From: Paramylibacter ulvae
GTDB lineage: Bacteria; Pseudomonadota; Alphaproteobacteria; Rhodobacterales; Rhodobacteraceae
Length of the DNA stretch: 64,000 nt
Direction of reading: 5' to 3'
Assembly (NCBI RefSeq): GCF_014652655.1
Contig: NZ_BMZF01000001.1
Location: forward strand, 248,001 to 312,000
Translations under genes and position numbers: made by a program
In this document: positions 24,429 to 37,267 of the stretch, piece by piece
Position numbering within the stretch: position 1 is the first letter of the stretch
Layout of the letters: the number at the start of each line of letters is the position of its first letter
The notes under the pieces: model-generated
What the model was told of the DNA's origin: nothing
Seen by the model: the letters and a program-made list of their open reading frames with translations, nothing else
Database searches by the model: none

Positions 24429-25733
24429 TTATTCGGCGGCAGTTGCCATTGGGTTGTTTGGATGTGTTGTCCAATCCCCATGTTTGTCCGATACTTTTTC
24501 ACCTGTACGTGGGTCTGTTGCACCAATCGGCATTTGTTCCATGGTGATGCAATCCTGAATTGGGCAAACATTCACACAAAGATTACACGCCACACATTCA
24601 TCGTCATTCACGCTAAATACGCGTTCATCCGACATGTCGATTGCTTGGTGCGAAGTATCTTCGCATGCGGCGTAACAACGGCCACAGCTGATGCACAGAT
24701 CCTGATCAATTTTCGCTTTGGCGATATAATTCAGGTTCAAATCTTTCCAATCGGTGGTGTTTGGCACTGCGCGGCGCACGATGTCAGCCGTGGATTCGAT
24801 CCCTTTTTGATCCATCCAATCTGACAATCCGCTGATCATTTCTTGCACCACTTTAAACCCATATGTCATGGCGGCGGTGCATACCTGAACATTGCCTGCA
24901 CCCAGCGCCATAAATTCGGCAGCGTCTTTCCATGTTGTGACGCCCCCAATACCGGAAATCGGCAAATGCGCTGTTTCTGGGCTTCGTGCAATTTCAGCGA
25001 CCATGTTCAATGCAATGGGTTTCACCGCAGGGCCACAATACCCACCATGCGCACCTTTGCCATCAATTGTTGGTTCAGGCGCGAATAGATCAAGGTCAAC
25101 AGAAGTAATTGAATTAATTGTATTAATCAAGCTGACCGCATCCGCACCACCACGCATCGCAGCCTCTGCTGGTTTTCGCACATCGGTGATGTTTGGGGTT
25201 AGTTTCACAATACATGGCAGTTTGGAATATTGTTTCACCCAACGTGTCACCATTTCAATATATTCGGGCACCTGCCCCACAGCCGCGCCCATGCCACGTT
25301 CCGACATGCCATGTGGACAGCCAAAGTTAAGCTCGACCCCATCCGCGCCTGTTTCCTCGACCAATGGCAAAATCTTTTTCCATGCTTCTTCTTCGCAAGG
25401 CACCATCAAAGACACGATGATTGCGCGATCGGGGTAGTCTTTCTTGACCGCCTTAATTTCGCGCAGGTTGACCTCTAGCGGGCGATCGGTGATCAACTCG
25501 ATATTGTTCAGACCAAGCAATCGGCGATCCGCGCCAAAGATTGCGCCGTATCGTGGGCCGTTGACGTTGACCACGGGAGGGCCTTCTTCGCCCAAGGTTT
25601 TCCACACAACGCCACCCCAGCCAGCCTCGAACGCGCGACGGACGTTATATTCTTTGTCTGTCGGTGGCGCCGATGCCAACCAGAACGGGTTGGGAGACTT
25701 AATTCCGATAAATTCACTTGCGAGGTTCGCCAT
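24429..25733 (-). CDS. preA: NAD-dependent dihydropyrimidine dehydrogenase subunit PreA
   Basis: Subunit of 434 residues that reduces uracil and thymine to the dihydro form, the first step of the pathway. Residues 1-310 form a dihydroorotate-dehydrogenase-like FMN barrel, with the active-site Cys in 'LNFGCPHGMSERGMG' near 137 and the FMN phosphate loop 'ISGIGGV' near 258. Residues about 330-400 form a ferredoxin domain with two 4Fe-4S motifs ('CISCGRCYAACED', 'CVACNLCVNVCP'). AAGGAG is six bases before the ATG. It lies 20 bases downstream of preT. Its stop meets the rutR stop tail to tail, with no gap. Confidence 0.94.
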   Translation of the reverse strand: MANLASEFIGIKSPNPFWLASAPPTDKEYNVRRAFEAGWGGVVWKTLGEEGPPVVNVNGPRYGAIFGADRRLLGLNNIELITDRPLEVNLREIKAVKKDYPDRAIIVSLMVPCEEEAWKKILPLVEETGADGVELNFGCPHGMSERGMGAAVGQVPEYIEMVTRWVKQYSKLPCIVKLTPNITDVRKPAEAAMRGGADAVSLINTINSITSVDLDLFAPEPTIDGKGAHGGYCGPAVKPIALNMVAEIARSPETAHLPISGIGGVTTWKDAAEFMALGAGNVQVCTAAMTYGFKVVQEMISGLSDWMDQKGIESTADIVRRAVPNTTDWKDLNLNYIAKAKIDQDLCISCGRCYAACEDTSHQAIDMSDERVFSVNDDECVACNLCVNVCPIQDCITMEQMPIGATDPRTGEKVSDKHGDWTTHPNNPMATAAE

Positions 25734-25753
25734 GATAGGCTCCTTTCCAATGC

Positions 25754-27088
25754 TTAAGCTGTCAGGCTTGCATGTATATCCATTGCTGCGTCACGCCCTT
25801 CGGCGACGGCTGTTACGGTCAAATCTTCGCCGCCATTAGCGCAATCACCACCGGCCCAAACGCCTGATTGTGATGTGCGACCAAATTCATCGACTGCGAT
25901 TTTTCCATGCTCAATTTCTAATGCATCGGGCGCACCGTTTAACGTTTGACCAATCGCTTTGAAGACTTGATCGGCGCGGAGTTCGAACGTTTCACCTGTG
26001 CTGATCAATTTACCATCTTTGGTTTGCATATAGGCAAATTCAACACCAACAGCCGCGCCATTACCAAGGATACGTTCGGGTTGAACATTGTACAAAATTC
26101 GCACGCCTTTGGATGTTGCCAAGTCCTGTTCATAAACAGATGCGCTCATGCGATCCTTGCCACGGCGATAGGCAATTGTGACCTCTTCTGCACCCAACAA
26201 TTTGGCCTGCACGGCGGCGTCAACTGCCGTCATACCGCCACCGATAACGACAATTCGCCGTCCGATGCTGAGTTTGGATAAATCAGATGCCTGGCGCAAA
26301 TCGGCAATGAATGAAACCGCGTCCAGCACGTTATCCTTGTCCTCGCCATCCGCGCGCAGCGCGTTCACACCCGCCAGCCCCATGCCAAGGAACACGGCGT
26401 CATAATTATTCGATAAACCATCCAACGTAATATCAGAGCCAAGCGATTGCCCTGTTTTCAATTCAATCCCACCAATGGACAGCAACCAATTCAATTCGTT
26501 TTGGGCAAACCCATCAACGGATTTGTAACTGGCGATACCAAATTCGTTCAGCCCGCCTGCCTTGGCGCGTGCATCGAAAATGACAACATCATTGCCAAGC
26601 ATCGCCAAACGGTGCGCACAGGATAATCCCGCAGGCCCAGCACCCACAACGGCAACCTTTTTGCCTGTGGATTTGGCGCGCACAAATGGGTGGATACCCT
26701 TACCCATTAACGTGTCAGTGGCGTAGCGTTGCAAACGCCCGATTTCAACTGGCTTGCCCTCTGCCGTTTCGCGAACACAGACCTCTTCACACAATGTTTC
26801 GGTGGGGCAAACGCGTGCGCACATGCCGCCCATTATGTTTTGTGAAAAAATCGTTTTGGCCGATGCATCTGGCGTACCCGTCGCAATTTGGCGAATGAAC
26901 AACGGAATATCAATATCGGTTGGACATGCGGTTATGCACGGCGCGTCATGACAGAAATAACACCGATCCGCGGCAACCAATGCCTCGTGATCGTCAAGTG
27001 GTGGATGCAAATCTGTGAAATTGTCGGCCAGCGTTTGTTGATCCAAACGTTCTGCGACCACCCCATTCGTTGCTATTGAATTAGGCAT
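25754..27088 (-). CDS. preT: NAD-dependent dihydropyrimidine dehydrogenase subunit PreT
   Basis: Electron-input subunit of 444 residues, partner of PreA. The N-terminal half binds Fe-S clusters through 'CYFCHDAPCITACPTDID' near residue 43 and 'CARVCPTETLCEEVC' near 93. This is followed by FAD ('VAVVGAGPAGLSCAHRLAML' near 143) and NAD ('IVVIGGGMTAVDAA' near 270) binding folds, the layout of glutamate synthase small subunits. AAAGGAGGAGG before the ATG is one of the strongest ribosome sites in the window. A degenerate RutR-like site lies 57 bases upstream. Confidence 0.94.
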   Translation of the reverse strand: MPNSIATNGVVAERLDQQTLADNFTDLHPPLDDHEALVAADRCYFCHDAPCITACPTDIDIPLFIRQIATGTPDASAKTIFSQNIMGGMCARVCPTETLCEEVCVRETAEGKPVEIGRLQRYATDTLMGKGIHPFVRAKSTGKKVAVVGAGPAGLSCAHRLAMLGNDVVIFDARAKAGGLNEFGIASYKSVDGFAQNELNWLLSIGGIELKTGQSLGSDITLDGLSNNYDAVFLGMGLAGVNALRADGEDKDNVLDAVSFIADLRQASDLSKLSIGRRIVVIGGGMTAVDAAVQAKLLGAEEVTIAYRRGKDRMSASVYEQDLATSKGVRILYNVQPERILGNGAAVGVEFAYMQTKDGKLISTGETFELRADQVFKAIGQTLNGAPDALEIEHGKIAVDEFGRTSQSGVWAGGDCANGGEDLTVTAVAEGRDAAMDIHASLTA

Positions 27089-27306: not shown

Positions 27307-28452
27307 TTACAAACAATCCTCGATCAGCTTTTTCGTATTATCATATGTCATTTCTACGGGATTGCCGCCAGTACTTGGATCATTTAGCGCACTTTTGGTC
27401 AACGCATCGATGTCTGGATTTTGAATGCCAAGCTCGGTCAGGTTCTTTGGAATGCCAAGGCTGTCGTTCAAATCGGACACAAATTGGTAAAACCCGTCAA
27501 AGCCGCCAGCGATCCCCAGATAATTCGCTGCATCCGCCAACCGATCGGCAACGGCGTCTTTGTTGAATTTCAACACCTGCAACATCACGGTCGCATTTGT
27601 GGTGCCGTGATGGGTGTGATGAACCGCGCCGATTGGGTGGGAAATCGCGTGGATTGCACCAAGCCCCTTTTGAAACGCGGTCGCCCCCATTGCGGCGGCA
27701 GACATCATATGCGCGCGCGCTTCGATATCGGTGCCATCTTTGAATGCGCGTGGCAGGTATTCCTTGACCAATCGCATCCCTTCCAGCGCCATACCTTGGC
27801 TCATCGGGTGATAATGGGGGGAACAATATGCTTCGAGGCAATGCGCAAATGCATCCATGCCCGTCCCCGCCGTAATGAATGGTGGCATCCCAACCGTCAA
27901 TTCAGGATCACAGATCACAACGGAAGGGAGGATTTTTGGGTGGAAAATGATCTTTTTCTCATGCGTAATGGAATTGGTAATCACGGATGCGCGGCCCACT
28001 TCGGAACCTGTGCCAGCGGTTGTTGGCACGGCGACAATCGGTGCGATTGCGTCGGGATCGGCGCGTGTCCACCAATCACCAATATCTTCGAAATCCCACA
28101 ACGGGCGGGTTTGCCCCGCCATGAACGCAAGAACTTTGCCCAGATCAAGACCTGAACCACCGCCAAAGGCAACAACGCCGTCATGCCCACCTGCGCGGTA
28201 TACATCCAATCCAGCGGCGACGTTTTCTTCGGTTGGGTTTGGGTCGACGTCGCTAAACATCGCGCGGCCCAATCCCGCAGCGTCAAGCAAATCCAATGTG
28301 GATTGCGTGATCGCCATATTTGCCAAACCTTTGTCGGTGACAAGTAGCGGTTTTTTGATGCCAGCGGCGGCGCAGGCATCTGCGATTTCGCTGATGCGCC
28401 CTGCCCCAAAACGGATAGCGGTTGGATATGACCAATTTGCTGTGATTGTCAT
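27307..28452 (-). CDS. Iron-containing alcohol dehydrogenase
   Basis: Group III, metal-dependent alcohol dehydrogenase of 381 residues, interconverting an alcohol and an aldehyde with NAD(P). The nucleotide motif 'GGGSGLDLGK' is near residue 97, 'PTTAGTGSEVG' near 141, and the metal ligands are in 'GTGMDAFAHCLEAY' near 195 and 'ISHPIGAVHHTHHG' near 265. It is the last gene of the TRAP/ligase operon, 4 bases after the aldehyde dehydrogenase gene and before a terminator. In this context it most plausibly oxidises the alcohol group of a gamma-glutamylated amino alcohol. Reduction of an aldehyde is the formal alternative. Confidence 0.88.
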   Translation of the reverse strand: MTITANWSYPTAIRFGAGRISEIADACAAAGIKKPLLVTDKGLANMAITQSTLDLLDAAGLGRAMFSDVDPNPTEENVAAGLDVYRAGGHDGVVAFGGGSGLDLGKVLAFMAGQTRPLWDFEDIGDWWTRADPDAIAPIVAVPTTAGTGSEVGRASVITNSITHEKKIIFHPKILPSVVICDPELTVGMPPFITAGTGMDAFAHCLEAYCSPHYHPMSQGMALEGMRLVKEYLPRAFKDGTDIEARAHMMSAAAMGATAFQKGLGAIHAISHPIGAVHHTHHGTTNATVMLQVLKFNKDAVADRLADAANYLGIAGGFDGFYQFVSDLNDSLGIPKNLTELGIQNPDIDALTKSALNDPSTGGNPVEMTYDNTKKLIEDCL

Positions 28453-28456
28453 CGGT

Positions 28457-29836
28457 TTAAGCTTTCTTAATGTGGTATGATTTTGGACGGGTCAGGTTGT
28501 GATATCCAATCGCAGATAATCCCCCACCACGCCCTGTGTTTTTGCACCCAGTCCAGCACAACGCTGGATCAAGATAATCCGCACGATTGGTGAAAACCGT
28601 ACCAGTTTCCAATTGATCACCAATGCGTTCAGCGCGTTCATAATCGCGGGTCCACAATGATGCGGTCAGGCCAAATTCGCTGTCATTCATCAATGTGATC
28701 GCCTCTTCATCGTCTTTGACGCGCATAATGCCCACCACAGGGCCAAAACTTTCGTCGCGCATTACGCGCATGGAATGATCCACATCGACCAAGATTTGGG
28801 GCATTAAATATGCGCCACCATCATTTGGGAAAAGTTTTGGGTCAATCAGTGCTTTGGCACCCGCTTTGATTGCCTCTGCGGTTTGCATGCGTACCTCTTC
28901 TGCGAAACGCAGATGCGCCATTGGGCCAAGCGTGGTTTCTGGATCCAATGGATTGCCAAGTTTATACGCACTAACAATCGCAACGGCCTTTTCAACAAAA
29001 GCATCATAAAGGCTATCAACCACATAAATGCGTTCAATACCGCAACAACATTGACCACTGTTAAACATTGCGCCATCGATCAATGTATCAACGGCCGCGT
29101 CCAAATCAGCGTCTTCCATTACATATCCTGGGTCTTTGCCGCCCAATTCCAATCCAATTCCTGTGAATGTACCCGCGGCGGCACGTTCCATCGCCTTGCC
29201 GCCACCAACGGAACCTGTGAAATTCACAAAACTAAATGCGCCATTGGCGATTAATTCGGATGTGGTGTCATGCCCCAAGAACATGTTTTGGAATACATCG
29301 GCTGGGATGCCAACCGAATGAAATGCCTTGGCCAGACGTTCACCCACCAACAGGGTTTGTGACGCGTGTTTCAACACCACCGCATTGCCCGCGATCAATG
29401 CGGGTGCGACCGCGTTAATTGCTGTCATATATGGGTAATTCCACGGTGCAACCACCAATACAACACCATGTGGAACGCGTTTGATTTTGCGATCAAAATT
29501 TGCGCTGTCTTCGACGATAATCGGTGCGAGCGCCTCGGCGGCAATATCAGCCATGTGACTGGCGCGTTCGTTAAATCCGCCAAATTCACCGCCGTACCGC
29601 ACCGGTCGCCCCATTTGATGGGCGATTTCAGGCACAATTTCATCGTTCATATCACCAATTGCGGCAACACCTGCACGTACCAATGCGATACGTTCATCTA
29701 ATGGGCGTGCGGCCCACGCAACCTGTGCCGCTTTGGCCGCTGCAACAGCTTCGGTTGCCGTAGCAAGATCAAGCGTGTCACGCGTGGCAAAAACAGACCC
29801 ATCAATGGGCGAAATACAGTTTACAGTGTTTGTCAT
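28457..29836 (-). CDS. Aldehyde dehydrogenase (second)
   Basis: NAD(P)-dependent aldehyde dehydrogenase of 459 residues. Visible are 'VAPWNYPY' near residue 132, the catalytic Glu in 'LELGGKDPGYV' near 232 and the catalytic Cys in 'FNSGQCCCGIERIYV' near 266, with three consecutive cysteines. It resembles the short succinate-semialdehyde-type branch more than the betaine branch of the first aldehyde dehydrogenase (5374-6852). ATG 29834-29836 follows the ligase stop by one base; the open frame further upstream lies within the ligase gene. It likely oxidises the gamma-glutamyl aldehyde to the acid. Confidence 0.87.
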   Translation of the reverse strand: MTNTVNCISPIDGSVFATRDTLDLATATEAVAAAKAAQVAWAARPLDERIALVRAGVAAIGDMNDEIVPEIAHQMGRPVRYGGEFGGFNERASHMADIAAEALAPIIVEDSANFDRKIKRVPHGVVLVVAPWNYPYMTAINAVAPALIAGNAVVLKHASQTLLVGERLAKAFHSVGIPADVFQNMFLGHDTTSELIANGAFSFVNFTGSVGGGKAMERAAAGTFTGIGLELGGKDPGYVMEDADLDAAVDTLIDGAMFNSGQCCCGIERIYVVDSLYDAFVEKAVAIVSAYKLGNPLDPETTLGPMAHLRFAEEVRMQTAEAIKAGAKALIDPKLFPNDGGAYLMPQILVDVDHSMRVMRDESFGPVVGIMRVKDDEEAITLMNDSEFGLTASLWTRDYERAERIGDQLETGTVFTNRADYLDPALCWTGCKNTGRGGGLSAIGYHNLTRPKSYHIKKA

Positions 29837-29837
29837 G

Positions 29838-31205
29838 TTAGGCTCTTTCAAATCCGCGCTTGATTTCATAATCGGTTACGACGCGGTCAAATTCTTCTTG
29901 TTCCCATGTGGCCGCGCGGGTGTAGTGATCAATCACATCATCCCCCATCGCAGCGCGTAGCATTTTTGAATTGCGCAACAAATCCGTCGCATCGCGTAAA
30001 CTATGCGGGATATGTGTTGTATCATCGTTTTCGTATGTGTCACCCATGGATGGCCCAGCCAGTTCAAGTTTATCTTCCAAGCCTTTGATCCCTGCTGCCA
30101 GTTGTGCAGCAATTGCCAAATACGGATTTAAATCCGAACCACCAATGCGACATTCAACACGCACACCTTTGGTTTTTGCACCGCACAGGCGGAAACCAGC
30201 GGTGCGGTTATCAATCGACCAAACGGTTTTGGTCGGTGCGAATGTTCCCTTTGCAAAGCGTTTATAGCTGTTCACATATGGGGCGAGGAAATAAGTGTAA
30301 TCGGGTGCATATTTTATCAACCCCGCCATGTAATGGCGCATGGTGTCGGTCATTCCCAGTTCGTCGTTTTTGTCATAAAACGCGCTGTCACCATCCAATG
30401 TCCACAATGATTGATGCACGTGGGATGAACTGCCCACACGTTCGTGGTGCCATTTCGGTAAAAAGCTGACCGCGTGCCCCTGTTGCCATGCGATTTCTTT
30501 GGTCGCGTGTTTCGCGATGGAATGATAATCGGCGTTGTCCATTGCGGGGGCATAACGGATGTTCAATTCCTCTTGCCCTGCTTCGGCCTCACCTTTGGTG
30601 TTTTCAATGGGCAATCCCGCCTCGAACAACAAGTTGCGCAAAGGGCGCATGACGTGTTCTTCTTTGGTGGTTTGAAGGATGTGGTAATCTTCGTTATATG
30701 CACTGATTGGTGCCAGGTCTTGAAAATTATCCTTGCGGATTTCATCAAAACTTTTCTCGAAAAGGAAAAATTCCAATTCTGTCGCGGTTTGCGCGACATA
30801 GCCAAGCTCGGCCAGTCGTGCGATTTGGCGTTTCAAAATTGCGCGCGGTGAATGTGGCACGTCTTGATGCGTATTGTGATCGAGAACATCGCATAAAACC
30901 ATTGCCGTGCCTTCCAGCCATGGCACAATGCGCAATGTGGACATATCGGGTTTCATAACGTAATCCCCATACCCAGTTTGCCAGCTGGTCGAGGCATAGC
31001 CATCAGGTGTCGCCATTTCCAAATCTGTTGCCAACAGGTAGTTACAGCAGTGGGTTTCTTCCCATGAATGGTCGATGAAATTTTGCGCATGGAACCGTTT
31101 GCCCATCAAGCGCCCTTGCATATCAACCAAACACACCAAAACCGTGTCGATTGATCCATTCAAAACCATCGGTTTTAGCGTTTCTAAACTCATGTTACCT
31201 GACAT
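29838..31205 (-). CDS. Glutamine-synthetase-like gamma-glutamylamide ligase (PuuA type)
   Basis: Glutamine synthetase family protein of 455 residues. It has the beta-grasp N-terminus ('VLVCLVDMQGRLMGKRF'), the metal-binding 'TATELEFFLFE' near residue 140, 'NTKGEAEAGQEELN' near 203, 'GSSSHVHQSLW' near 257 and the C-terminal 'NRTAGFRLCG'/'VECRIGGSDLNPYLA' active-site strands near 325-350. The sequence is of the catabolic branch (PuuA, IpuC, GlnA4 group) that joins glutamate to an amine with ATP, not of the ammonia-assimilating GlnA. ATG 31203-31205 has AGGAG five bases upstream. The dehydrogenases and amidohydrolase around it suggest an amino alcohol as acceptor. Confidence 0.87.
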   Translation of the reverse strand: MSGNMSLETLKPMVLNGSIDTVLVCLVDMQGRLMGKRFHAQNFIDHSWEETHCCNYLLATDLEMATPDGYASTSWQTGYGDYVMKPDMSTLRIVPWLEGTAMVLCDVLDHNTHQDVPHSPRAILKRQIARLAELGYVAQTATELEFFLFEKSFDEIRKDNFQDLAPISAYNEDYHILQTTKEEHVMRPLRNLLFEAGLPIENTKGEAEAGQEELNIRYAPAMDNADYHSIAKHATKEIAWQQGHAVSFLPKWHHERVGSSSHVHQSLWTLDGDSAFYDKNDELGMTDTMRHYMAGLIKYAPDYTYFLAPYVNSYKRFAKGTFAPTKTVWSIDNRTAGFRLCGAKTKGVRVECRIGGSDLNPYLAIAAQLAAGIKGLEDKLELAGPSMGDTYENDDTTHIPHSLRDATDLLRNSKMLRAAMGDDVIDHYTRAATWEQEEFDRVVTDYEIKRGFERA

Positions 31206-31228
31206 GATAACTCCTGTTGTCTGTGGAT

Positions 31229-31251
31229 GGGCGCGCATCATATGCGCGCCC
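31229..31251 (-). other. Strong intercistronic stem-loop without T-run
   Basis: GGGCGCGCAT (31229-31238) and ATGCGCGCCC (31242-31251) form a perfect 10-pair stem with a 3-base loop, directly after the dctP stop on the - strand. No T-run follows, so it is more likely an RNA-stabilising or processing element than a terminator. Confidence 0.6.
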
Positions 31252-31259
31252 AAAAAGTG

Positions 31260-32294
31260 TTAGCCGTAACGATACGGACGGCCTGCTTTGACCATATCCG
31301 CGTTATACTGCTTGAATATATTCACAACCTTGGCCTTGGTTTCGGATTCAGCTGCGATTTCATCCCAGAACGTATGTGCTGCTGCTTCGACAGTTGCCCA
31401 TTCTTCGTCTGGAATAGTGGTAAGTTGCATTTTCGGGCCGTTGACACGCAATGCGGCTTCGCCACCCCAATACCACCATTGGCGATAATAATGCGAACTG
31501 TCCATTGCCAACTTCAGCAACTCTTTCAGATGTTCTGGCAATTCTTGATAACGATCCATATTGGCAAAGAATGACCCAGCCCAAGCACCCGAAATGTTGT
31601 TGGTCAGGAAGTAATTCGTAACATCCGCCCAGCCCACTGTGTAATCTTCGGTGATGCCAGACCATGCGATCCCATCAAGTTCACCCGTTTGCACGGCGAC
31701 TTCGATGTCTTCCCATGGCAATGTCACTGGAACCACACCAAATTGGGTCAGGAAACGCCCAGCGGTTGGGAATGTGAATACGCGTTTACCTTTAAGATCG
31801 GCCAATGAATTGATCGGATCTTTGGTTGCGAAATGGCATGGATCCCAAGAACCCGCAGACAGGTGTTTTACACCAACCTTTGAATATTCTTCGTCCCAAA
31901 TTTCATTCAAACCATATTGGTTGAACAACACGGGCACGTCCAATGAATAGCGGCTTGCAAATGGGAAATATCCGCCAAATACGGTTACTTCTGTTGGGGA
32001 TGCCATGCTGTCGTCATCTGATTGCACCGCATCAATTGTACCTTTTTGCATTGCGCGGAACAATTCTCCCGTTGGGACAAGTTGATCGGCAAAGTACAGT
32101 TCGATTTCCATTTCATCGCCTGCAACCTTGTTAAAGGCATCAATGGCGGGTTTTACCACATGTTCGGCCAATGCAGGGCCTGCATATGTTTGCAAACGCC
32201 ATGTGATTTTGGATTGCGCGATCGCGGGTGCTGCAAGGCTTGCGCCCACGGCTCCGGCACCGGCACTGGTGATAAACTTACGTCTTGTTGTCAT
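31260..32294 (-). CDS. dctP: TRAP transporter substrate-binding protein (DctP family)
   Basis: Periplasmic TRAP binding protein of 344 residues. The N-terminus has a twin-arginine signal ('TTRRKFITS', alanine-rich core, cleavage after 'AIA'), common for TRAP proteins of this TAXI/DctP-type branch with FcbT-like ligands. The mature part begins 'ITWRLQTYAGPALAEHVVKP'. The ligand Arg position cannot be assigned by eye. ATG 32292-32294 has AGGAGA upstream; a GTG two codons earlier is possible. The permeases follow upstream in the operon (dctQ, dctM, dctP order). A stable hairpin just after its stop may raise its level relative to the enzymes downstream. Confidence 0.88.
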   Translation of the reverse strand: MTTRRKFITSAGAGAVGASLAAPAIAQSKITWRLQTYAGPALAEHVVKPAIDAFNKVAGDEMEIELYFADQLVPTGELFRAMQKGTIDAVQSDDDSMASPTEVTVFGGYFPFASRYSLDVPVLFNQYGLNEIWDEEYSKVGVKHLSAGSWDPCHFATKDPINSLADLKGKRVFTFPTAGRFLTQFGVVPVTLPWEDIEVAVQTGELDGIAWSGITEDYTVGWADVTNYFLTNNISGAWAGSFFANMDRYQELPEHLKELLKLAMDSSHYYRQWWYWGGEAALRVNGPKMQLTTIPDEEWATVEAAAHTFWDEIAAESETKAKVVNIFKQYNADMVKAGRPYRYG

Positions 32295-32357
32295 CTTCAC
32301 TCTCCTATTTTGCTTGTTATGCCCAAAGGGCGGTGATGCTCGTTGCGAGTCTTATTA

Positions 32358-33680
32358 TTATTTCCCGTAAACATATTCTGGCAGCCACAACGCGATTTGT
32401 GGGAACAGCATAATCAGTGTCAGTGCCAAAACCATAATCATCACAAACGGCAGGATGGACCCGTAAATATCACGTAGCGTGATTTCCTTGGGCGCCATTG
32501 CACGCATTAAAAACAGGTTATAGCCAAAGGGCGGCGTCATATATGCGATCTGTGTCGTGATGGTATAGAGAACACCGTACCAAACCAAATCAAATCCGAG
32601 CGCTTGAACCAATGGCACGTATAGCGGCGCCACGATCACCAACATCGCGGTGTCATCCAAAAATGTCCCCATCAACAGGAACGATAGCTGCATCAGCACC
32701 AAAATCATCCACGGCTCCAGCCCCAATTGTTCGGTGAACAGATTATCAATCGCCCGTACGGCACCCAGCCCATCAAACACCGCACCAAACCCAAGGGCGG
32801 CCAGAATGATCCACATAAACATACATGAAATCGCTAGCGTCTGGCGCACAGATGTTTCAAACACCGCCTTGGTCATGCGCCCCTTTAACACGGCGGCGGC
32901 GAATGCGGTCATGGCACCAATGGCAGAGCTTTCGACCAGTGATGTCCAACCGTTCACAAACGGCACCATCATCGCGGCAAAGATCACCAGTGGCAATAAT
33001 CCAGCGCGTAACAAGCGTAGTTTTTCAGCGGTTGAAACTGTGCGTTCTTCTGGTGGTAAAACAGGGCCAAGGCTTGGGTTGATTTTACAGCGCACGGCGA
33101 TGTAAATAATGAACATCGTCGCCATCATCAAGCCGGGGACAACACCCGCGAGCCATAGCTGCCCCACAGGTTGACGTGCGATCATGGCATATAGAACCAG
33201 CACAACAGATGGCGGCACGAGGATACCAAGCGATGAACCGGCCTGTATCACCCCTGTGACCATGCGTTTATCATATCCGCGTTTTAATAATTCAGGCAGC
33301 GCAATCGTGGCGCCAATTGCCATACCCGCAACAGATAATCCGTTCATCGCAGATACCAAAACCATCAACCCAATGGTGCCAATGGCAAGTCCGCCATTGA
33401 TTGGCCCCATCCAGACATGGAACATCTTATAAAGATCATCTGCGATTTTACTTTCGGACAGGACATAGCCCATGAAAATAAACATTGGCAGTGTTAACAA
33501 TGGATACCATTTCATCAACTTCATCGCCGATGAAAACGGAATGTCGGAACCACCCGTGCCCCATAATGTGACGGCCGCAATCGCGCCCACGGCACCAATC
33601 GCACCAAACACACGCTGACCTGTAAACAGCATCAGCATCATCGATGAAAACATCACAATGGCAATCATTTCGTGCGACAT
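32358..33680 (-). CDS. dctM: TRAP transporter large permease (DctM)
   Basis: Sodium-dependent TRAP permease large subunit of 440 residues with about 12 membrane helices. The segments 'LLTLPMFIFMGYVLSESKIA' near residue 57 and 'MNGLSVAGMAIGATIALPEL' near 110 are family-typical, as are 'GSSLGILVPPSVVLVLYAMI' near 147 and the C-terminal 'MTPPFGYNLFLMRAMAP'. Its ATG overlaps the TAA of dctQ by one base (TAATG), so the two subunits are translationally coupled. Confidence 0.94.
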   Translation of the reverse strand: MSHEMIAIVMFSSMMLMLFTGQRVFGAIGAVGAIAAVTLWGTGGSDIPFSSAMKLMKWYPLLTLPMFIFMGYVLSESKIADDLYKMFHVWMGPINGGLAIGTIGLMVLVSAMNGLSVAGMAIGATIALPELLKRGYDKRMVTGVIQAGSSLGILVPPSVVLVLYAMIARQPVGQLWLAGVVPGLMMATMFIIYIAVRCKINPSLGPVLPPEERTVSTAEKLRLLRAGLLPLVIFAAMMVPFVNGWTSLVESSAIGAMTAFAAAVLKGRMTKAVFETSVRQTLAISCMFMWIILAALGFGAVFDGLGAVRAIDNLFTEQLGLEPWMILVLMQLSFLLMGTFLDDTAMLVIVAPLYVPLVQALGFDLVWYGVLYTITTQIAYMTPPFGYNLFLMRAMAPKEITLRDIYGSILPFVMIMVLALTLIMLFPQIALWLPEYVYGK

Positions 33681-34186
33681 TACAAAGCCACCCCTTTTAT
33701 CTTAAAGATGTCTTTGATCAGCTCTGATATCGCTTGCAGCAACATCAAGAATATTCCGATGCACATGGTGATTTTAATCGGCCATAAATATGGTCGCCAT
33801 GCGGTTGGGCTTCGCTCATTGTATTTAAGCGAATATGCCGTGCTATCCCACGCGCCATAAAGCATGATGCCCAAATACGCGATCAGGAAAAACACGGTGA
33901 TGCAATCAATCTGTGCCTTTTTGCGATCCGACCATTCGCCGTAAAACAAATCCATACGCACATTTGATCCCATCTGAATGGAATACGGCCCGCCAAGGAT
34001 ATAATATGCCACCATGCAAAACTGTGCGACCTCTAACGTCCAGAGTGACGGGAGGAAGAATGTTTTGGAAATGGATGACCAAAGTAGCACGCTAACCATA
34101 ACAAAAATGCCGTACATGACCACTCGGCCAATACGATAATTGATTGCATCCACAACTTTAACAAAGCCTCGGGCAAGGTTAATCAT
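33680..34186 (-). CDS. dctQ: TRAP transporter small permease (DctQ)
   Basis: Four-helix TRAP small subunit of 168 residues; membrane segments near residues 20-42, 52-70, 92-115 and 140-160. 'TLEVAQFCMVAYYILGGPYS' near residue 50 carries the conserved helix-2 Glu and the Gly-Pro of the family. It overlaps the amidohydrolase gene by 4 bases (ATGA) and dctM by 1 base. Confidence 0.92.
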   Translation of the reverse strand: MINLARGFVKVVDAINYRIGRVVMYGIFVMVSVLLWSSISKTFFLPSLWTLEVAQFCMVAYYILGGPYSIQMGSNVRMDLFYGEWSDRKKAQIDCITVFFLIAYLGIMLYGAWDSTAYSLKYNERSPTAWRPYLWPIKITMCIGIFLMLLQAISELIKDIFKIKGVAL

Positions 34187-34974
34187 GCTGTGGCCTCGTT
34201 TAAATCGATGCCAAGTGTGGCGAATGTTTCGCGCAAATGCTGTGCCAAATAGGCCCCCATTTTTTCTTGGTCTGCGTCGTTGGTGATTAAATCATTGCGC
34301 ACCTCGATCATTGCATTTTGCAATCCGTTTTGCGTGCCATGCAGGTTTAACGTATGTGCCACCCCATCATCGCGTGAATATGGCTCGTTTAACTCGCTGA
34401 TATATGTGCCATCATTTTGAAGCGTTTTGACAAATTCGCGGGCCAGTTGCGCATCTTTGTCGTGGATAACGCCGATTTCAACGCGCCGTGGTTGATCAAA
34501 ATATGTCGGTGTAAAACTGTGAACTGTCACCACAATCCCCTGCTCACCTTTTTGCGCGATTGCATCGGACAGCGTGTCGCGAAATGGTATGTACACCGCG
34601 CTGGTGCGCGCATCGCGTTCGTCTTGTGACAATGTTTCGTTTGCGGGAATAACGATTTTTTCGCTTTTGGCGGGCATGGCGCTTGGCGCTTCTGGTGGAC
34701 GATTGCAATCATAGACCAACCGCGACACCGTGCCATAAACACCAACCGCATCAAATTCACGAACCAAGCTGTTCAAAACGCCAAGCGCACCTGGGTCATA
34801 CGCGGCGTGGGATGTTTTGTCAGTTTCCGACAGACCAAGCCCGCGATAGGTTTCTGGGATCGCGTTGCTGGCATGTTCACACACAAAAACAATACGCGAT
34901 GCACCCGTTGGGTTTATCACCGCAACCGGATTGACCGTTTCGCCATGCGCATGATCGTGCTGTCGCTGTCCCAA
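34183..34974 (-). CDS. N-formylglutamate amidohydrolase-family protein
   Basis: Zn-dependent amidohydrolase of 263 residues. Family motifs are complete: 'VFVCEHASNAIP' near residue 29, 'HAAYDPGALGV' near 54, 'SRLVYDCNRPP' near 81 and 'VVTVHSFTPTYF' near 147. In histidine breakdown the family splits N-formylglutamate, but no hut gene is present. As first gene of the TRAP/ligase operon, it would be suited to hydrolyse a gamma-glutamyl amide or gamma-glutamylglycine instead. The start is a TTG at 34972-34974 with GGGGA six bases before it, which adds a His-rich N-terminus ('GQRQHDHAHGE') of unknown role. An ancillary function in removing formylated glutamate is the alternative. Confidence 0.83.
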   Translation of the reverse strand: MGQRQHDHAHGETVNPVAVINPTGASRIVFVCEHASNAIPETYRGLGLSETDKTSHAAYDPGALGVLNSLVREFDAVGVYGTVSRLVYDCNRPPEAPSAMPAKSEKIVIPANETLSQDERDARTSAVYIPFRDTLSDAIAQKGEQGIVVTVHSFTPTYFDQPRRVEIGVIHDKDAQLAREFVKTLQNDGTYISELNEPYSRDDGVAHTLNLHGTQNGLQNAMIEVRNDLITNDADQEKMGAYLAQHLRETFATLGIDLNEATA

Positions 34975-35046
34975 GTTGATTCCCCTGTCCCGTGTTTTGT
35001 AAAATTCTGTTCAGTCTTGGGTCACCTGTCAAATGATTTCTGTAAA

Positions 35047-35064
35047 TTTCTCTTCAAAAAGAAA
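35047..35064. promoter_or_regulatory. Candidate RpiR operator
   Basis: TTTCT-N8-AGAAA inverted repeat in the 128-base divergent region between the TRAP/ligase operon and the RpiR gene. The arms are short and AT-rich, so chance is a real alternative; position is the main support. Confidence 0.3.
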
Positions 35065-35102
35065 AGTAATGTCGATATATGTTCAATATGGAGACTGATT
35101 TT

Positions 35103-35969
35103 ATGGCATCAAATAACATTTCAGATCGGCTGACCCAATATTTTGACAGCCTCACGCGTGCCGAACGCCAATTGGCGAATGTGGTCATGGAAAACTATCC
35201 CGTGTCTGGATTGGGATCGATCACCGAACTGGCGGAAAAAGCCGATGTGTCCACTCCATCCGTTGCGCGATTGGTGCAAAAACTTGGTTTCAAAGGATTT
35301 CCAGAGTTTCAGGCGCAATTACGCAAAGAGCTGGCCGCCAAAATTTCGGGCCCAATTGAAAAACATGATCGCTGGGCCGAAAATGCGCCCGATACGCATA
35401 TTTTAAACCGCTTTACCGATGCGGTGATGACCAATATTCGCAAATCATACCATCAAATCGATACCAATGTGTTTGATCGTACCTGTGAATTGTTGGCGGA
35501 TCAAAAACGATCTGTATATGTGGTTGGCGGGCGCATTACGCACGCGTTGGCCGATTACTTTTTCCTACATATGCAGGTTATTCGCCCCGATGTGACCCAT
35601 ATTCAATCCATATCAAACGCATGGCCGCATTACCTGTTGGATATTAAAAAGGGCGATGTAATCGTTGTGTTTGATGTGCGGCGATACGAAAACAGCACGC
35701 TCAAGCTGGTTGAAATGGCGGCCGCCAAGGGCGCCGAGGTGGTTTTGATCACCGATCAATGGATTTCCCCGATTAGCAAGCTGACCAATTTGGTGTTTGC
35801 CGCACGCATTTCGGTGCCATCTGCTTGGGATTCATCCATCGTGAACATGTTGATTTTAGAAACAATTATTGCCCGCGTCCAAGAAATCATCTGGCCAGAT
35901 ACACGCGAACGCATGGAGCAATTGGAATCCATGTTTGATGAAACCAAATTGTTTCGCAAATTTACCTAA
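35103..35969 (+). CDS. RpiR-family transcriptional regulator
   Basis: Regulator of 288 residues: an N-terminal RpiR helix-turn-helix (about residues 1-77, 'LTRAERQLANVVMENYP' and 'KADVSTPSVARLVQKLGFKG') and a SIS effector domain (about 120-260, with 'SVYVVGGRITHALADYF' and 'KKGDVIVVFDVRRYENS'). The SIS domain usually binds a phosphosugar. Here the catalytic neighbours are not sugar enzymes, so the effector may be a pathway intermediate. ATG 35103 is chosen because GGAGA lies 8 bases upstream; two earlier in-frame ATG codons (35079, 35088) have no ribosome site. It is divergent from the TRAP/ligase operon and probably represses it. Confidence 0.87.
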   Translation: MASNNISDRLTQYFDSLTRAERQLANVVMENYPVSGLGSITELAEKADVSTPSVARLVQKLGFKGFPEFQAQLRKELAAKISGPIEKHDRWAENAPDTHILNRFTDAVMTNIRKSYHQIDTNVFDRTCELLADQKRSVYVVGGRITHALADYFFLHMQVIRPDVTHIQSISNAWPHYLLDIKKGDVIVVFDVRRYENSTLKLVEMAAAKGAEVVLITDQWISPISKLTNLVFAARISVPSAWDSSIVNMLILETIIARVQEIIWPDTRERMEQLESMFDETKLFRKFT

Positions 35970-36032: not shown

Positions 36033-36575
36033 ATGACCACTGTATCTGACATTGAAAACATGATTGCCCGCGTCGGGATCGGCGATCGTAATGCATTTTC
36101 TTTGCTCTATGATGCAACATCTGCGAAACTTTTTGGCGTTTGCTTACGTATCTTAAATAATCGGGCTGATGCAGAGGAAGCGTTGCAAGAGGTTTTCGTC
36201 AGGATATGGCAAAAATCCAGCAGCTATTCCGCAAATGGATATAGCCCGATGACATGGTTGATTACATTGGCGCGCAACCTTGCAATTGATAAATTGCGAG
36301 CACGCAAAGCACCAACAACAGATATCGATGATGTGCCCGATTTGCGCGATCAAGGCCCCACACCAGAGGCGGCGGCGATTGCATCATCCGAACGTGCACA
36401 GATAGATACATGTCTGAATGAACTGGACGATGGTCATGCGGATGCCGTGCGCGGCGCCTACTTGAACGGGGACAGTTACCAAGAATTGGCAGATCGTTTT
36501 GATGTGCCAATAAATACAATGCGAACATGGCTGCGTCGCAGTCTTTTGAAACTGAAAGAGTGTTTGAGTAAATGA
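36033..36575 (+). CDS. ECF sigma factor (SigK/RskA-associated type)
   Basis: Extracytoplasmic-function sigma factor of 180 residues. Region 2 is at about residues 20-90 ('LYDATSAKLFGVCLRILNNR', 'ALQEVFVRIWQKS', 'TWLITLARNLAIDKLRARK') and region 4 at about 125-178 ('GAYLNGDSYQELADRFDVP', 'NTMRTWLRRSLLKLKE'). Its stop overlaps the anti-sigma gene start (ATGA), the normal arrangement for a sigma/anti-sigma pair. The two fasciclin genes behind share an AAC-N16/17-CGT promoter pattern that is typical for ECF factors, making them the likely regulon. No such pattern was found before the sigma gene itself. Confidence 0.92.
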   Translation: MTTVSDIENMIARVGIGDRNAFSLLYDATSAKLFGVCLRILNNRADAEEALQEVFVRIWQKSSSYSANGYSPMTWLITLARNLAIDKLRARKAPTTDIDDVPDLRDQGPTPEAAAIASSERAQIDTCLNELDDGHADAVRGAYLNGDSYQELADRFDVPINTMRTWLRRSLLKLKECLSK

Positions 36576-37267
36576 GTGGTTCAACAGACATAGATAAGGA
36601 CGATTTCGCCCTCGCTGGCGAATATGCTCTGCATCTGTTGGATGCCGATGAACGCGCAGCGTTCGACCAACGCTTGTTAAACGAACCAGCGCTGCGCGCC
36701 GCGTTGCGCGAATGGGACGAAGATTTCGCGACAATGGCGGATGAATTTGAACCCATCACCCCACCAGAACACCTTAAGGCGAAAATAGAATTGGAAATGT
36801 TTGCCGCCAATACACCATCCCACGGTGTCAGCGCACATTTCTGGAGCATTCGTCGCTTTATCGCATCTGCTGTTGCTGTGGCGGCATTGGTGATGATTGG
36901 TTTTTACAGCTATAACCTCAACCGATTTAGCCCAACGCAAGTGGCCGATATGGTCACAGCGGATGAAACATTGTTCATCCATGCGGGGTATCAGGCAGGC
37001 GATGATGAATTGCATTTCATTCGCCACAAAGGCACCACGGGCGAAGGACGATCATTGGAATTGTGGCTGTTTCCTGCGGGTGAGTCCGTTGCGGTATCAC
37101 TCGGTGTGATACCCGAACAAGAACGCGGTGTAATACCGTTGGCGGCTGAACATGCTGCCGCCATCAAAGGTGGTACATTGGCGATCAGCGATGAACCATT
37201 AGGCGGTTCACCAACAGGCCAGGCAACAGGCCCTGTGTTGGTTGTGACCCCAATCACAGACCTGTGA
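36572..37267 (+). CDS. RskA-like membrane anti-sigma factor
   Basis: Anti-sigma factor of 231 residues. The cytoplasmic N-terminal part ('ALAGEYALHLLDADERAAFD', residues 13-32) is the sigma-binding domain of the RskA/anti-sigma-K family. One membrane helix spans about residues 96-116, and the periplasmic domain (117-231) contains the family pattern 'HFIRHKGTT...LELWLFPAGES' and 'GTLAISDEPLGGSPTGQATG'. No zinc-binding HxxxCxxC motif is present, so release is probably by proteolysis rather than by cysteine oxidation. It is coupled to the sigma factor gene by a 4-base overlap. Confidence 0.9.
   Translation: MSGSTDIDKDDFALAGEYALHLLDADERAAFDQRLLNEPALRAALREWDEDFATMADEFEPITPPEHLKAKIELEMFAANTPSHGVSAHFWSIRRFIASAVAVAALVMIGFYSYNLNRFSPTQVADMVTADETLFIHAGYQAGDDELHFIRHKGTTGEGRSLELWLFPAGESVAVSLGVIPEQERGVIPLAAEHAAAIKGGTLAISDEPLGGSPTGQATGPVLVVTPITDL

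Follow-up and report, generated by a model that had tools for sequence, protein, structure and literature searches.

Gene content of the locus

We analyzed a 64,000-nucleotide stretch of the Paramylibacter ulvae genome (contig NZ_BMZF01000001.1, positions 248,001 to 312,000; hereafter the window, in which all positions are counted) that holds seven leftward genes divergent from a gene for an RpiR-family regulator. A sequence-only reading had described these genes as a gamma-glutamyl catabolic operon for an amino alcohol with its own tripartite ATP-independent periplasmic (TRAP) importer. Its eight open reading frames and their families are borne out by Pfam, with Fe-ADH, Aldedh, Gln-synt_C, DctP, DctM, DctQ, FGase, and HTH_6 plus SIS (RpiR) above cut-off, and a small Gln-synt_N match in the ligase below it. 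On the minus strand, the first operon gene encodes a PF05013 amidohydrolase (34183–34974; 124.7 bits), the putative counterpart of gamma-glutamylglycine amidohydrolase (GGAH). It is followed by the small and large TRAP permeases DctQ (33680–34186; PF04290) and DctM (32358–33680; PF06808), which correspond by synteny to EtoV and EtoW, and by a TRAP solute-binding protein, DctP (31260–32300), assigned to EtoX type 1 from its likeness to the structure 4uab and from Phe175. The next gene encodes a glutamine-synthetase-like ligase (29838–31253), for which the best solved relative (5dm3) and the metal-binding glutamates suggest a counterpart of ethanolamine gamma-glutamylase (ETAGA). An aldehyde dehydrogenase (28457–29869; PF00171) is placed by synteny as the counterpart of gamma-glutamyl-acetaldehyde amide dehydrogenase (GAADDH), and an Fe-dependent alcohol dehydrogenase (27307–28452; PF00465/PF25137), the last gene of the conserved order, as that of gamma-glutamylethanolamide dehydrogenase (GETADH). 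The RpiR-family regulator (HTH_6 and SIS; PF01418 and PF01380; synteny) is encoded on the plus strand at 35079–35969. The ATGA and TAATG couplings described for the operon are real: the dctQ start and the amidohydrolase stop form ATGA (34186–34183), and base 33680 is common to the dctQ stop and the dctM start. The ligase likely starts at the ATG at residue 17 of its longest frame (P0003), position 31205, and the aldehyde dehydrogenase likely at the ATG at residue 12 of its own (P0002), position 29836.

We consider it very probable that these genes are the known gamma-glutamyl ethanolamine catabolic operon (EtoVWX/ETAGA/GAADDH/GETADH/GGAH). By analogy with published systems, the TRAP transporter would import ethanolamine, which the ligase would join to glutamate with ATP. 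The Fe-dependent alcohol dehydrogenase and the aldehyde dehydrogenase are predicted to oxidize the amide-protected alcohol to gamma-glutamylglycine, which the amidohydrolase is predicted to cleave to glycine and glutamate. Repression by RpiR probably acts through two candidate sites that flank the −35 box and would be lifted by an inducer. We infer this whole pathway for the genome; in the parts of the published accounts consulted, to which all statements about published work below refer, the dehydrogenase and hydrolase steps and control by RpiR are inferred as well.

The binding protein and its ligand

DctP of the window is 80.2% identical over 318 residues (609.5 bits) to 4uab, which we take to be the structure of Csal_0678 from Chromohalobacter salexigens, compared with 62.6 bits for the second-best match in the Protein Data Bank. 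Its Phe175 aligns with an arginine of the TRAP proteins 2hzk, 5cm6, 4pet, and 4yzz, in a column that we take to be the position of Arg-147 in SiaP. Csal_0678 binds ethanolamine and is without the carboxylate-fixing arginine of TRAP proteins (PMC4646407), and a review describes ethanolamine as a particular surprise among TRAP ligands, being positively charged (PMC5812351). In Phaeobacter sp. MED193, the operon MED193_10021-10056 encodes RpiR, GGAH, EtoV, EtoW, EtoX, ETAGA, GAADDH, and GETADH; its EtoX binds ethanolamine with a dissociation constant of 7.9 µM, and the amidohydrolase, EtoX, the ligase, and both dehydrogenases are raised on phosphorylethanolamine (PMC10132767).

In the order, 148 genomes were sampled, and DctP matches at E 1e-100 or better were found in 93. 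Identity to the window protein is at least 72% in 66 of these genomes, including the window's own (type 1), and 63–68% in the other 27 (type 2). The presence of this second type in otherwise similar operons leaves some room for the same chemistry acting on another amino alcohol, such as 3-aminopropanol, alaninol, or N-methylethanolamine, and yielding a gamma-glutamyl homologue of glycine. However, the window DctP is of the 4uab type and the MED193 operon, with its identical gene order, responds to phosphorylethanolamine, and we regard another substrate as very improbable.

The ligase, the dehydrogenases, and other routes

Ethanolamine catabolism through a gamma-glutamyl intermediate also agrees with the character of the ligase. 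Among solved structures the ligase is closest to 5dm3 (774.6 bits over 454 residues), presumably from C. salexigens, and then to 11zs (576.4 bits); none of the other 35 matches exceeds 167 bits. Aligned to GlnA of the same genome (L087), the ligase retains the metal-binding glutamates E159, E161, E222, and E229. The FDGSS, GGYFPV, and GFEAP segments that carry D50, Y179, and E327, all present in GlnA, are missing from the ligase, with the alignment loose around D50 and with Phe338 in place of E327, so that the ammonium site of an ammonia-dependent glutamine synthetase is not found (GlnA residue names partly after PMC6529630). GlnA4 of Streptomyces coelicolor has the same replacement at the E327 position, F331 (PMC6529630).

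In NCBIfam, none of the 14 alcohol dehydrogenase matches is over cut-off, nor is any among the 25 of 44 aldehyde dehydrogenase matches listed, and no model is over cut-off for the ligase among the matches listed. One of the ligase matches, to gamma-glutamylputrescine synthetase (184.1 bits against a cut-off of 650), indicates some likeness to a PuuABCD-type polyamine pathway. No FAD (flavin adenine dinucleotide) oxidase or PuuD-type hydrolase was found by Pfam among the operon proteins, however, and a separate pair resembling PuuA and PuuB by eye, a second glutamine-synthetase-like ligase adjoining an FAD oxidoreductase, lies elsewhere in the genome (L085, 1435–4110). The polyamine pathway was set aside for the missing oxidase and hydrolase, and we consider it extremely unlikely.

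As the sequence-only reading had noted for the window, ethanolamine ammonia-lyase is absent: EutB (PF06751) has 0 matches in the genome, with a positive Escherichia coli control, and the EutBC route was set aside on this ground. The relatives of DctP and of the ligase, the conserved synteny, and the lack of a EutB match support both the proposed course of the pathway, from uptake through glutamylation and two oxidations to amide hydrolysis, and a sharpening of the predicted substrate to ethanolamine; 3-aminopropanol or a methylated relative, also put forward as candidates, are not needed. The novelty that had been attached to the pathway does not stand, as discussed below.

Conservation of the operon in relatives

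The search for co-occurrence that the sequence-only reading had suggested was made in two sets of loci, which have one genome in common (L015 and L125). The first, from named genomes, comprises the 80 loci that ranked highest by DctP similarity out of 581, and in it many contigs end within the operon; the second consists of 40 hand-picked family loci, from 20 of the 27 type-2 and 20 of the 66 type-1 genomes. The full order of divergent RpiR, amidohydrolase, DctQ, DctM, DctP, ligase, aldehyde dehydrogenase, and alcohol dehydrogenase is present in 41 of the 80 named-genome loci, in 36 of the 52 among them in which dctP is flanked on each side by 6.5 kb or more, and in 33 of the 40 family loci; this gene order is not due to chance. 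Counted singly in the 80 loci, DctP occurs in 80, DctM in 78, DctQ in 74, the ligase in 61, the amidohydrolase in 56, RpiR and the aldehyde dehydrogenase in 53 each, and the alcohol dehydrogenase in 52. In one locus, L150, our simple frame caller missed the two dehydrogenase genes owing to an antisense frame.

The amidohydrolase step

The hydrolase is the weakest step of the pathway. Atu2144 (2odf, 228.8 bits) is the sole solved relative of the amidohydrolase at E 0.01, and no NCBIfam model matches it. The counterpart of the amidohydrolase in the nearest genome (L118) shares 73% identity with it, whereas the adjoining genes are 94–100% identical; a frameshift was set aside because the two proteins align without gaps. 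Two other PF05013 proteins are encoded in the genome, with no operon-type genes beside them by eye in stretches of 3.6–3.7 kb.

The shared Pfam family would allow the protein to be an ordinary N-formylglutamate enzyme of histidine degradation that is merely located in the operon, as would the lack of an amidohydrolase beside the ligase in some relatives. Several points speak to the contrary: the gene heads the operon in 36 of the 40 family loci and accompanies the ligase in clusters that have no TRAP genes, the nearest solved relative is Atu2144, and the genome has 0 matches to histidine ammonia-lyase (PF00221), for which 5 of 14 controls were positive. HutG and histidine degradation were set aside on the last of these, and we consider this explanation very unlikely.

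A number of observations nevertheless weigh against the ethanolamine pathway as we read it, or against a strict coupling of its parts. Among the 80 loci, 13 of the 61 that bear a ligase have no amidohydrolase; the force of this count is tempered by seven loci that stop short of dctQ or have less than 1.5 kb ahead of it, which leaves six with at least 3.9 kb there (L023, L026, L030, L037, L048, and L063). In the family set, the amidohydrolase is missing from 1 of 36 ligase-bearing loci (L117). No substitute hydrolase was seen near the operon genes by eye in the frames of L026, L027, L030, L037, L047, L048, L063, and L153, with no family search made, with L047 having no upstream flank, and with L023 and L117 left out. 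Conversely, 8 of the 56 amidohydrolase loci have no ligase. When nine of the 19 ligase-less loci were followed to their genomes, six encoded elsewhere a ligase that is 50% or more identical, and three did not; two of these three carry a paralogous cluster with a 31% ligase, and the third has an aldehyde dehydrogenase at 58% and an alcohol dehydrogenase at 51%. In a tenth genome searched, that of L063, the ligase is in place. EtoX of MED193 is raised without phosphate as well (PMC10132767), and no enzyme assay of the amidohydrolase or the dehydrogenases was found in the parts of the literature on the pathway consulted.

Related clusters without a transporter

The amidohydrolase, ligase, and both dehydrogenases also occur together without TRAP genes in L149. 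A diverged paralogous cluster, likewise without TRAP genes, is present in L146 (4808–12312), L147 (4019–12140), and L148 (4441–12606), where proteins encoded in one neighborhood are 33–34% (amidohydrolase), 31–32% (ligase), 55% (aldehyde dehydrogenase), and 57–58% (alcohol dehydrogenase) identical to those of the window. The genomes of L146 to L149 have no match to EutB. The paralogous cluster may serve to degrade another amino alcohol through gamma-glutamyl intermediates, and it is absent from the portions of the published descriptions consulted. In L146 it also holds a gene that by eye resembles a short-chain dehydrogenase.

Two types of EtoX in one operon slot

The 20 type-2 loci that were fetched have other genes as similar to those of the window as usual, with DctM at 80–86% identity in 18 of 19 and the ligase at 61–76% in 17. 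Types 1 and 2 of the binding protein differ near residues 104–107, 115–119, 146–158, and 172–175, and type 2 has a tyrosine at position 175. Type 2 does not form one clean clade, with 2 changes on the DctP tree. On the ligase tree (37 rows) the type switches at least 9 times, with 7 switches forced by well-supported branches, and on the DctM tree (40 rows) it switches 4 times, with 1 forced. Because of these switches, operons appear to have exchanged the binding protein, perhaps partly together with DctM. That the two types swap repeatedly within an otherwise conserved operon, with type 2 adapting the pathway to another amino alcohol or another range of concentration, is a doubtful proposal that we put forward tentatively. 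The sections of the published descriptions of the operon consulted do not mention two interchangeable types.

Candidate operators and flanking genes

The gap between rpiR and the amidohydrolase gene contains two 16-base near-palindromes, 43 bases apart, around a TTGACA. On the minus strand, candidate operator 1 (TGAAGAGAAATTTACA) lies at 35041–35056 and candidate operator 2 (TGAACAGAATTTTACA) at 34998–35013, over the expected −10 region. Between them is the candidate −35 box at 35027–35032, and TTGACA is found in 82 of 90 intergenic stretches. When as many as 4 mismatches to TGAAGAAATWTTTTCA are allowed, at least one site occurs in 58 of the 90 gaps and two in 30; 20 dinucleotide shuffles gave averages of 3.1 and 0.15. 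The motif was chosen after 17 stretches had been viewed; in the other 73, held out, at least one site is present in 44 and two in 18, and 50 base shuffles gave averages of 0.92 and 0.0. Kinship of the sequences inflates these counts, and one genome entered twice (L015, L125). No site was found in 32 of the 90 gaps, and the genus-mate L119 is without a clear one. The operator pair, putative and proposed from sequence comparison, does not appear in the parts of the published descriptions of the operon consulted.

Directly downstream of the operon on the same strand (24429–27088) are preA, over the cut-off of an NCBIfam equivalog model, and a preT-like gene, for subunits of dihydropyrimidine dehydrogenase. 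They are not counted as part of the system because the fetched flanks carry them in only 1 of the 40 family loci, that of the nearest genome, and in none of the 80 named-genome loci. After rpiR (36033–37267), a sigma-factor-like gene overlaps one that resembles an anti-sigma partner, both named by eye from their translations.

Comparison with known systems

Like the window operon, the PuuABCD/PauA polyamine pathway protects its substrate by gamma-glutamylation with a glutamine-synthetase-like ligase. It uses an FAD oxidase and a PuuD-type hydrolase where the window operon has the Fe-dependent alcohol dehydrogenase and the PF05013 protein. The C. salexigens region of Csal_0678 has the same four enzyme families as the window and is presumably the source of the structures nearest to the window DctP (80.2% to 4uab) and ligase (5dm3). 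Those families are PF00120, PF00465, PF00171, and PF05013 (PMC9397018, Table 2), and all four are found in the window operon. The route had been put forward for Chromohalobacter before the work on MED193. Related genes of Chromohalobacter and Agrobacterium are called demonstrated to function in one account (PMC10132767), whereas another calls the Chromohalobacter pathway predicted in silico (PMC6529630). The GlnA4 cluster of S. coelicolor (SCO1611-1615) resembles the window in that gamma-glutamylation of ethanolamine was shown for GlnA4 and a hydrolase of the formylglutamate amidohydrolase family was proposed; unlike the window operon, it has a short-chain dehydrogenase, another putative transporter, and another regulator (PMC6529630).

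Uptake by a TRAP transporter and the use of such an amidohydrolase, which the sequence-only reading had presented as new, are thus both already published (PMC10132767, PMC9397018, PMC6529630), and the claim fails because the same eight-gene order is known from Phaeobacter sp. MED193. This is one more genome with a published pathway, an ordinary finding and not a new one. The window copy therefore mainly adds to the distribution of the pathway, with a close EtoX in 93 of the 148 sampled genomes of the order, and it illustrates that a real pathway can be recovered by reading raw sequence alone. In the sea, the ethanolamine of membrane lipids supplies nitrogen and carbon (PMC10132767), and the gamma-glutamyl route to its use needs no ethanolamine ammonia-lyase. 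A comparison of gene order, the level at which the MED193 operon and that of the window were compared, showed no difference: all eight genes are shared and are arranged alike.

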